The position numbers and the translations under genes were made by a program. From Bacteroidota bacterium (GTDB lineage: Bacteria > Bacteroidota > UBA10030 > UBA6906), in the NCBI GenBank assembly GCA_016844425.1, contig JAERML010000083.1, positions 1-6,472 of the forward strand: DNA of 6,472 bases. The letters run 5' to 3'. Below are positions 1 to 2,127 of this stretch, in pieces. The notes below the pieces were generated by a model. That model did no database searches, was not told where the DNA came from, and worked only from the letters and a program-made list of their open reading frames with translations. The first letter of the stretch is position 1; every line of letters begins with the position of its first letter.

Positions 1-140
1 TTGTATACTGGCACCACGCCGAGCTTCTTCCGTAATGCTCGGACTGTTGCTTCATCCGTCCTCCACAACTCCGCAAGCTGCCGGTCAGAGAAGCCGTACT
101 GTTTTGCCTTCAGCAGTATGTCTCGGGTGATTTTCTTCAA
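1..140 (-). CDS. carB: Carbamoyl phosphate synthetase large subunit, C-terminal piece (partial, 5' end of a split carB)
   Basis: This is the second piece of carB and runs off the left edge of the window. Read leftwards from 140 it encodes 46 codons (LKKITRDILLKAKQYGFSDR, then a QLAELW segment and a DEATVRALRKKLGVVPVY segment). That matches the part of the CarB oligomerisation domain just before the second ATP-grasp (carbamoyl phosphate) domain; E. coli has a KGFADARLAKL and LHPVYKRVDTC region here. The only in-frame start seen is TTG at 140-138. It overlaps the stop of the preceding Spy-like gene as TTGA, with only a weak GGTGG about 3-4 bases upstream, so restart after termination is the likely route. 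The frame differs from that of the N-terminal piece, so the two cannot be read as one polypeptide without frameshifting. The family identity is clear from recalled conserved residues; the start codon and whether the piece is expressed are inference. The second catalytic half lies outside the window. Confidence 0.85.
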   Translation of the reverse strand, partial: MKKITRDILLKAKQYGFSDRQLAELWRTDEATVRALRKKLGVVPVY

Positions 141-619
141 TGACCACCGGAGGCGTGTCGGGACGCCTCGTGTCTGATAGTGTTGTACAATGCAATCTGT
201 TGCTTCGTAAGAATCTGTCTTGCCTGGATGTGTGCAGTCATGTGCACCGCCCGCAACTCCCCGCGGAGCATTCCGATTTCCCCCGTGAGCCGTCGGACGT
301 CCGGTATCGTCGCGACTCCAAGCCTGAACTTCGAGTCGAGTTCCATCTCCTTCGCAATGATCAACTCCCCCTTCGTCCGGGCATTCTCGCTCATCTCATC
401 GAAGATTGCTTCGATGTCCTTCTCCTGTCCATCGGTCAAACTCAGGGTGTCCCGCATTTCCAGAAGGTGCTTCGGGCCGGGATATCCGTTGAGGTCCGCG
501 TATGACGCCATTCCCGCACCCGCACCGCGCTCCAACAACTCTCTGTCAGGAGGAATGGGTTGCGAGCGGACAGTCTGTACAGTGAGCGACAGAAGAACAA
601 TGGAGAACATCGGTTTCAT
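137..619 (-). CDS. Spy/CpxP-like small LTxxQ protein inserted between two halves of carB
   Basis: A 160-residue protein. Residues 1-19 look like a short signal peptide: Lys2, a hydrophobic run FSIVLLSLTV, and a possible cleavage near VRS-Q20. Residues about 46-150 are helical and charged, with two copies of the LTxxQ motif (LTDGQ at 61-65 and LTKQQ at 137-141), a YPGPKHLLEM segment before the first and LRGELRAVHMTAHIQARQIL before the second. This is the pattern of Spy/CpxP-type periplasmic chaperones and related heavy-metal-sensor-like proteins, which bind unfolded proteins or metal in the envelope; the length is typical. Met1 at 619-617 is preferred because AAGGAG lies 11 bases upstream, inside the end of carB; Met4 would be 20 bases away. 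The start overlaps the carB stop as ATGA, and the stop overlaps the TTG of the carB C-terminal piece. No metal-binding cluster stands out. The placement inside carB is highly abnormal; a role linked to carB is not shown. Confidence 0.8.
   Translation of the reverse strand: MKPMFSIVLLSLTVQTVRSQPIPPDRELLERGAGAGMASYADLNGYPGPKHLLEMRDTLSLTDGQEKDIEAIFDEMSENARTKGELIIAKEMELDSKFRLGVATIPDVRRLTGEIGMLRGELRAVHMTAHIQARQILTKQQIALYNTIRHEASRHASGGH
150..169 (-). other. Perfect 7-bp stem-loop just before the carB C-piece start
   Basis: GAGGCGT at 150-156 pairs exactly with ACGCCTC at 163-169 around a 6-base loop. It lies within the last codons of the Spy-like gene, 9 bases upstream of the TTG start at 140. No T-run follows on the minus strand, so it is not a convincing terminator. 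It could pause ribosomes or shape re-initiation, or it may be a by-product of the repetitive coding stretch EASRHAS. Confidence 0.4.
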
Positions 620-2127
620 GCGAGAGCGTACTCCTTCAATTCCCTCTCCAGGTCAACAATCTGTTTGATGTTATGAAGGAACCATGGATCGATATACGTG
701 ATCGCATAGAGGTCATCGAGAGTTAGCCCCAGAAGAAACCCATACCGGAGATAGAACACGTTCTCGGGGCGGGGCCGGCTGAGCTGCTCCCTCACGCGCG
801 TCCTCCATTCTTGTTTTTCCGCTTCCGTCAGCCGGTCGATATCAAAGAGATCCTTGCCATCGGCGCCGAGCCCGAAGCGACCCTGTTCGAGCGAGCGGAG
901 CGCCTTTTGCAGCGCCTCCTTGAATGTCCGTCCGAAGGCCATGGCTTCACCAACAGACTTCATCTGGATTCCGAGCGAGTCGTCCACCCCCTTGAATTTC
1001 TCGAAGTCCCACCGGGGAATCTTCACGACGGTGTAATCAATGGTCGGCTCGAACGATGCGGGAGTGAGCTTTGTGATGTCGTTGGGGATTTCGTCCAGTG
1101 TATACCCCACCGCAAGCTTGGCTGCGATCTTTGCGATCGGAAAGCCGGTGGCCTTGGAGGCCAGCGCCGAAGAACGGGATACGCGTGGATTCATTTCGAT
1201 CACCAGACGACGGCCTGTCTTCGGATTCACGGCAAACTGGATGTTCGAGCCTCCCGTCTCAACGCCGATCGCCCTGATGATCTTGAGCGAATCATCACGC
1301 ATCGCTTCGTATTCCTTATCCGTTAGCGTCTGCTGCGGGGCCACAGTGATGGAGTCGCCGGTGTGGACGCCCATGGGATCGAAGTTCTCGATTGAGCAGA
1401 TGATGACGACATTGTCCTTCAGGTCGCGCATCACCTCCAACTCGTATTCCTTCCAGCCGATGATGGATTCTTCGAGGAGCACTTCGTGAATGGGACTCGA
1501 TTCGAGGCCGTGCTCCACCGCGTCCACAAACTCCGATTCGCTACGGACAATTCCGCCGCCGGTACCACCGAGTGTGAATGAAGGCCGGATGATGATCGGG
1601 AATCCGATCATTGCAACGAGTTCCTGCGCCTGTTCAATCGTACGCACAAACCCCCCGCGTGGCGTCTCGATCCCTGCCTTATCCATCGTGGCCTTGAACA
1701 ACTCGCGGTCTTCCGCTTTCTTGATGGCATCCAGCTTTGCGCCGATGAGCTCAACTTTGTACTTCTTTAGAACCCCACTTTCTGCAAGAGCGACAGCAGT
1801 GTTAAGCGCCGTTTGTCCTCCCATGGTGGGGAGAATGGCATTGGGACGTTCCCGCTTGATGATTTGTTCAACGAAGAATGGAGTGATCGGCTCGATGTAG
1901 GTTCGGTCGGCGAGGTCAGGATCCGTCATGATCGTTGCCGGATTGCTGTTGATGAGGATGATCCGGTATCCTTCCTCACGCAGTGCCTGGCAGGCCTGGG
2001 TGCCGGAATAATCGAACTCGCACGCCTGACCGATAATGATCGGGCCTGAACCTATGATGAGAATGGACTCGAGATCTGTTCGCTTCGGCAAGAGCAACGC
2101 TCGTTCTGGTTGGGCTTCAATATACAA
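616..2127 (-). CDS. carB: Carbamoyl phosphate synthetase large subunit, N-terminal piece (split carB)
   Basis: It encodes the N-terminal half of CarB, which makes carboxyphosphate from bicarbonate and ATP and then adds ammonia supplied by the CarA glutaminase, for pyrimidines and arginine in the cytoplasm. Counting from the TTG at 2127: a nucleotide-fold start LIIGSGPIIIGQACEFDYSG (23-42), TMGGQTALN (101-109), ATP-grasp RPSFTLGGTGGG (181-192), IGWKEYELEVMRD (223-235), GVETGGSNIQFAVNPKTGR (288-306) and metal ligands in VIEMNPRVSRSS (309-320). It then enters the oligomerisation domain and stops after DLERELKEYALA, roughly where E. coli CarB (about 1073 residues) is only half read. The TTG at 2091-2089 (MPKRTD) is the more likely start: it fits family N-termini and puts Glu311 and Asn313 at E. 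coli positions 299 and 301. No clear Shine-Dalgarno marks either start. carA is not upstream; the neighbour is divergent pabBC. The first active site looks intact. Confidence 0.93.
   Translation of the reverse strand: MYIEAQPERALLLPKRTDLESILIIGSGPIIIGQACEFDYSGTQACQALREEGYRIILINSNPATIMTDPDLADRTYIEPITPFFVEQIIKRERPNAILPTMGGQTALNTAVALAESGVLKKYKVELIGAKLDAIKKAEDRELFKATMDKAGIETPRGGFVRTIEQAQELVAMIGFPIIIRPSFTLGGTGGGIVRSESEFVDAVEHGLESSPIHEVLLEESIIGWKEYELEVMRDLKDNVVIICSIENFDPMGVHTGDSITVAPQQTLTDKEYEAMRDDSLKIIRAIGVETGGSNIQFAVNPKTGRRLVIEMNPRVSRSSALASKATGFPIAKIAAKLAVGYTLDEIPNDITKLTPASFEPTIDYTVVKIPRWDFEKFKGVDDSLGIQMKSVGEAMAFGRTFKEALQKALRSLEQGRFGLGADGKDLFDIDRLTEAEKQEWRTRVREQLSRPRPENVFYLRYGFLLGLTLDDLYAITYIDPWFLHNIKQIVDLERELKEYALA
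631..636 (-). promoter_or_regulatory. Shine-Dalgarno for the Spy-like gene, inside carB
   Basis: AAGGAG on the minus strand, 11 bases before the ATG at 619. It overlaps carB codons for L-K-E and supports independent or coupled initiation of the Spy-like gene at Met1 rather than Met4. Confidence 0.5.

Follow-up and report, generated by a model that had tools for sequence, protein, structure and literature searches.

A Spy-like gene nested in a split carB of a Bacteroidota bacterium and its relatives, and other genes at the same breakpoint

The large subunit of carbamoyl-phosphate synthase (CPSase), CarB, belongs to a central enzyme of arginine and pyrimidine synthesis, and a contig of a Bacteroidota bacterium (GTDB lineage Bacteria; Bacteroidota; UBA10030; UBA6906; GenBank assembly GCA_016844425.1, contig JAERML010000083.1, positions 1 to 6,472) raises the question of whether its gene can serve the cell in two pieces, with a complete gene for a Spy-like protein between them. 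A first-pass annotation of this stretch, which in its whole length of 6,472 nt is called the window below, had proposed a CarB that works as two polypeptides, with recent inactivation or misassembly as alternatives. It is quite likely that the locus encodes a working two-polypeptide CarB, whose fission point took up a Spy gene and, in other lineages, other genes, and that Spy was lost, carB re-fused or its halves scattered in some lineages. The split point of carB is best read as a place where genes have landed repeatedly, packed closely and in many cases overlapping.

The three reading frames lie on the minus strand, and the order and coordinates given for them earlier, as a carB interrupted in its middle domain by a complete Spy-like gene, hold. 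The N-terminal half of the CPSase large subunit, carB-N (616..2091, minus strand), is identified as an open reading frame (ORF), by Pfam and NCBIfam matches and by the database gene call P0028. It likely comprises 491 amino acids (aa) from a TTG at 2091, which is also the length of P0028, and a TTG at 2127 would give 503 aa; this corrects the start given earlier. P0028 comes from a contig of exactly 6472 bases, which makes it probable that the window spans an entire contig. The pre-ATP-grasp and ATP-binding domains are matched in Pfam (CPSase_L_D1, E 2.5e-49; D2, E 7.7e-71), NF003671 of NCBIfam matches with E 5.9e-246, and the protein aligns with residues 1-479 of E. coli CarB. It ends in ELKEYALA at a TGA (618-616), inside the oligomerisation domain D3, which is covered at positions 1-55 of 80 only (Pfam).

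This stop overlaps the start of spy by 4 nt (ATGA, 616..619, minus strand), an overlap also present as ATGA in G003 and as GTGA in G006 (G numbers denote sampled genomes). The Spy/CpxP/CnrX-like gene itself (137..619, minus strand) is a 160-aa ORF running from ATG at 619-617 to TGA at 139-137. A second 4-nt overlap (TTGA, 137..140, minus strand) joins the spy stop to the likely start of the C-terminal half, carB-C, a TTG at 140-138; the same TTG stands at -4 in G167. The carB-C frame begins LKKITRDILLKAKQYGFSDRQL and leaves the window at base 1, the contig edge, so that the piece read here (1..140, minus strand) holds the first 46 residues; over 45 residues it is 62% identical to CarB-C of G003. 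Completeness of the C-terminal half is seen in relatives such as G003, where it has 606 aa and no stops. As had been noted, both flanks are CarB. The span from DPWFL to GFSDRQL across the joined junction is 44 residues in the window, compared with 42 in the nearest fused relatives (G016, G230, G187 and G039) and 42-79 in 33 of 34 fused rows, the 33 in which the motif was found. Because this span is near that of fused carB, no conserved CarB residue is missing at the junction.

The same organization is found in relatives. A scan of genome contigs with carB-N gave 80 loci, the best of them from metagenome-assembled genomes (MAGs) labelled Ignavibacteriae, Ignavibacteriales, Bacteroidetes and Kapaibacterium; carB was fused in some relatives and had a stop near residue 490-515 in others, and a Spy-like gene lay between the halves, as in the window, at loci L006, L007, L010, L014 and L021. 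A class-wide sample of 294 genomes contained a CarB-C match (E <= 1e-100) in 251 and a CarB-N match (E <= 1e-140) in 162. Counted by eye, 61 of about 150 listed rows have a separate CarB-C frame (581-701 aa), fused carB frames being about 1,040-1,220 aa long; this count omits rows at contig ends, with the exception of G008, in which a CarB-N with a stop of its own lies elsewhere. The carB of G023 was considered split and then rejected, its two contig ends carrying one fused gene. A separate carB-N stop and a separate C-terminal half, as expected of a split CPSase, are present in the window and in relatives alike.

When a Spy-family alignment of 33 rows was used as query, 38 of the 294 genomes matched at E <= 1e-8. 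The order carB-N, spy, carB-C is found on single contigs in 18 genomes, and G258 is a nineteenth Spy-nested genome, in which the Spy match ends 17 nt from carB-N and is followed by the contig end. Because it recurs in these 18 genomes, and in G258 as far as the contig end, the arrangement is more than chance, and the observed locus is real. Every Spy match with E < 1e-50 (n = 18), together with that of G153 (2e-43), sits in or directly after carB. A further 14 matches (E 1.5e-48 to 7.8e-36) look stand-alone, 11 of them on contigs other than the listed carB contig (the place of carB is unlisted for G283, G244 and G175); the rest of the 38, beyond the 19 carB-linked and 14 stand-alone copies, are weaker. 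The Spy of G175 was considered as a carB-nested copy and rejected, because no CarB lies upstream and the downstream ORF is UvrA-like by eye. In the protein database there is a nine-member CarB-N cluster, and Spy and CarB-N proteins that come from source contigs of equal size (P0022 and P0040, 14,032 bases; P0016 and P0054, 18,398 bases) suggest that these pairs share the Spy-nested arrangement.

A second, intact carB elsewhere in the genome, which had been put forward as a possibility, was not found in most of these genomes at the thresholds used. With four CarB-C candidates scored per genome at E <= 1e-100, a single CarB-C match was obtained in 17 of the 19 Spy-nested genomes; the extra matches are a fused carB in G058 (53% identity) and a partial one in G005 (56% identity). 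Weaker carB matches were looked for in sets of 27 and 11 genomes, and at these lower thresholds only the two halves were found in G002, G003, G006 and G010 and also in G167, G049, G121, G104, G233, G029 and G001, among which G167, G049 and G121 are the nearest split relatives of the window. Two Latescibacterota MAGs (G012 and G013; loci L028 and L030) have a separately terminated carB-N together with a fused carB elsewhere in the genome.

Judging from ratios of nonsynonymous to synonymous substitution rates (dN/dS, Nei-Gojobori), both carB halves and Spy are clearly under purifying selection in relatives. In three Spy-bearing pairs, of which the window is not a member, dN/dS is 0.041, 0.021 and 0.032 for CarB-N; CarB-C has values of 0.028 and 0.017 and Spy of 0.100 and 0.098, with saturation of the third pair in both cases, and the split, Spy-less pair G049-G121 gives 0.017 and 0.024 for the halves, all of these values being rough because dS is high (0.5-2.5). 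The arrangement in relatives supports the proposal of a CarB produced as two polypeptides, with a Spy gene overlapping both by stop and start, and the two halves presumably work together as an active enzyme.

At the second junction, 13 of 19 cases (the window and 18 relatives) have a potential carB-C start (ATG, GTG or TTG) that overlaps with the 3' end of spy. At the first, the 4-nt overlap of carB-N and spy occurs in the window, G003 and G006, and the other relatives vary in overlap or gap. The junctions are thus closely packed in general, without keeping to an overlap of exactly 4 nt. Re-initiation may be coupled at the carB-N/spy/carB-C junctions, as their spacing suggests. In G002 and G143 (L006:3430-3434 and L117:1495-1499) the carB-C frame has an ATT that shares bases with the spy stop codon (ATTAA), and carB-C of G143, which has no ATG, GTG or TTG nearby, may use this rare start.

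The product of spy has a signal-peptide-like N terminus, by eye. LTXXQ matches it with E 1.1e-4 and 23.3 bits, just below the Pfam cut-off of 24.3; close members of its family give LTXXQ or Metal_resist matches up to E 8.4e-9, and the profile matches Spy-family chains weakly (E 2.3e-4 to 0.053). A structure model of the window protein (predicted local distance difference test score, 88.3) was built and structure matches were obtained, and the protein may have the helical fold of the family; 27 homologs were found in the protein database, the best with 94% identity. Compared with Spy, CpxP, CnrX and ZraP, which are small helical periplasmic proteins, the carB-nested family is distinguished by being encoded inside carB and by a motif of its own in the N-terminal region, GAGMASYADLNGYPGPKH in the window. 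P0026, an alphaproteobacterial protein from Cohaesibacter intestini by its source name, has the same unusual GxGxxxAxxAExNGxPGPxH motif, and the Spy family is therefore wider than the carB-nested clade.

In the course of events proposed here, fission of carB would have occurred in the linker of the middle (oligomerisation) domain, and CarB would be made as two polypeptides that assemble in the manner of CPS.A and CPS.B of Aquifex. A secreted Spy/CpxP-like gene would then have entered the fission point in the ancestor of an Ignavibacteria-like clade, and short gaps or overlaps would have been retained, so that ribosomes finishing one gene could begin anew at the gene that follows. The envelope is the most likely place of action of the Spy-like protein, which would be a passenger on a biosynthetic transcript with steady expression. 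In other lineages, different genes would have been taken up at this breakpoint, and in some descendants Spy would have been lost and carB re-fused or its halves scattered.

The history of the locus was followed in trees of 90 (CarB), 46 (CarB, mixture model), 21 and 92 rows chosen from the sampled genomes and scan loci; the CarB-N match of G102 (145 aa, 54%) was left out of the trees, and P0026 and P0027 were left out of the Spy tree with in-genome paralogs and kept in an earlier Spy tree. In the CarB trees the window groups with G167, which has Spy, and with G049 and G121, which are split and have no insert, in a set that also includes the fused G039, G187, G016 and G230 (support 100). When the G003 group's 17 split rows were constrained to a clade that left out the fused G110 and G198, the log-likelihood fell by 241 (p 7e-56), and because their exclusion is so costly, fused genes are placed within the split group; when the fused G025 was tested for a position inside a split clade, the alternative was not rejected (p 0.058). 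It seems that carB went through fission and fusion more than once.

The inserted Spys and 13 of the 14 stand-alone paralogs lie on opposite sides of one branch (99/97), which suggests one old insertion. Forcing 11 stand-alone Spys into one clade was rejected (p 0.0045), a result due to G175, without which they form one side of the branch. Repeated local duplication of a genome's own stand-alone Spy into carB is unsupported in G003, G163 and G153, where the inserted Spy is not sister to the stand-alone copy. The split carB of G029, which has no spy gene, keeps the ATGA, followed by 40 codons matching the C-terminal part of Spy; this remnant matches the hidden Markov model (HMM) with E 3.4e-11, against 0.15 for the best of 400 shuffles. 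G001 has a weaker end piece, which the family HMM missed, with 12 of 15 residues identical to the end of the G058 Spy. The G029 remnant, together with fused carB inside the split clade, suggests later loss of Spy and re-fusion. One old insertion, followed by Spy loss and re-fusion, would be the simplest account of these sequences.

Several observations weigh against the proposed course of events. The Spy-bearing rows do not form one clade in the CarB trees (8 changes), so that one insertion needs several losses or re-fusions, and the stand-alone Spy of G175 falls among the inserted Spys. The close relatives G049 and G121 have carB split without Spy, and nesting is accordingly dispensable. At the junctions, 6 of 19 lack an overlapping ATG, GTG or TTG start of carB-C; in five of these such a codon lies 5, 10, 25, 53 or 53 nt past the spy end, and G143 has none. 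The spy gene of G201 has no possible start until 178 nt or more past carB-N. The positions of G175 and of the Spy-bearing rows, which make three groups with fused rows between them in the CarB tree, would also be expected if the carB-N/spy/carB-C cassette had spread by transfer or if Spy had entered split carB several times, in which case nesting would not be ancestral and some fused relatives would never have been split. Such a history is possible but doubtful, because inserted Spys fall into three groups that correspond to those of the Spy-bearing rows in the CarB tree, none of the three genomes tested has its inserted and stand-alone copies as sisters, and G110 and G198, though fused, are placed deep within the split rows.

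Other genes occupy the same linker in other lineages. The carB linker of G004 contains a 351-aa protein with a type IX secretion system (T9SS) sorting tail, with an ATGA overlap, and its close sister G019 has a fused carB. A HAD hydrolase occupies the linker in G007 (ATGA), and in G036 one lies within 3 kb of extra DNA between the halves; in G097 and G065, whose carB-C is unlinked, HAD homologs stand no more than 4 kb upstream of carB-C and on its strand. The 3-kb stretch of G036 (L146, L281) has, in addition, a REP-associated-transposase-like protein (by eye), a possible agent of insertion. In G151 the linker encodes a PDDEXK_3 protein (E 4.4e-35). G305, G313 and G301 (L326, L327 and L328) have linker-encoded proteins some 470 aa long, each with a signal-like N terminus, and both scanned inserts of this type match DUF4139, one just below its cut-off. 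These three genomes make up a separate clade, distant from the Spy group (support 100), and theirs is an independent nesting in a distant lineage; G301 alone among them has an overlapping carB-C start, the gaps in the others being 69-105 nt.

Halves of carB can also be unlinked, lying on one contig about 340 kb apart in G133 and about 70 kb apart in G046. In a phylum sample of 296 genomes, 290 of them with a match, 72 further rows with a separate CarB-C (58-60% identity) were found among the matches listed (for example, G357, G348 and G381), a group suspected to belong to Chlorobia; in 13 of the 72, no carB-N was found in the upstream DNA (4 kb in 11, less in 2).

A broader and more tentative reading is that carB acts as a protected gene nest, in which genes between the coupled halves of a needed enzyme would gain steady expression and be shielded from many deletions, capture would be repeated and the states of carB would be reversible. 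If this is true, carB in a single bacterial group would shift back and forth between states, whether fused, split, nested, re-fused or scattered, and the captured genes would be unrelated and often for secreted proteins. It is unlikely that nesting was selected for a functional link that requires joint production of Spy and CarB, for instance, in a set ratio or at the membrane. Close packing at most of the 19 junctions fits such a link, as does the secreted appearance of three of the five insert families (Spy, T9SS-tail and DUF4139), judged by a signal-like N terminus or sorting tail. However, Spy is lost or absent in the split G029, G049, G121, G104 and G233, where both halves stay; the insert families are mutually unrelated, HAD and PDDEXK_3 do not look secreted, and three of five secreted families would arise by chance in about 6% of cases if a fifth of genes were secreted (an assumed share, in a hand calculation).

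Recent inactivation of carB by an insertion, or an assembly chimera, would be in keeping with the shortness of the contig that forms the window, but either is very improbable in view of the same gene order in 18 other genomes, the dN/dS of 0.02-0.04 on both halves in relatives, and the 94%-identical Spy and nine-member CarB-N cluster in other data. Least credible of all, despite CarB frames that continue across the insert, is removal of the insert as an intron, intein or bypassed segment to yield full-length CarB, since a conserved ORF with start and stop codons of its own makes up the insert and relatives have unrelated genes or nothing at the same place; there is no Rfam match in the window at gathering thresholds and no intein domain in the insert (Pfam). 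Intron or transposon insertion was rejected on the lack of an Rfam match and of direct repeats at the junctions, no direct repeat family of at least 12 nt, as in a target-site duplication, being present in 60-700.

The remainder of the window contains a divergent neighbour of carB, a PabB-aminotransferase class IV fusion (aminodeoxychorismate synthase and likely lyase; 2239-4143, plus strand), identified by domain matches, and a CstA-family protein (4504-6255, minus strand), identified in a Pfam scan of the window.

For annotators, a half-length CarB in this clade should not be taken for a broken gene or an assembly error. Members of the clade carry this one central gene in a natural range of states, from fused through split, nested and remnant-bearing to unlinked, with some copies apparently re-fused, so that the route and reversibility of bacterial gene fission can be tested here. 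In Methanocaldococcus jannaschii and its relatives carB consists of two genes, with the division close to mid-protein, and the CarB halves of Aquifex differ in length from those described here. A two-piece CarB is already known; a literature search covering open-licence papers found no gene nested in a split carB and no split carB in Ignavibacteria, and a gene nested between the halves is apparently unreported in that literature. According to a passage on the Aquifex enzyme in a review (PMC6022934), CPS.A and CPS.B are separate subunits that, with GLN, make up an active complex; no nested gene is mentioned there, unlike in the split carB described here. In both systems CarB comes from two genes.
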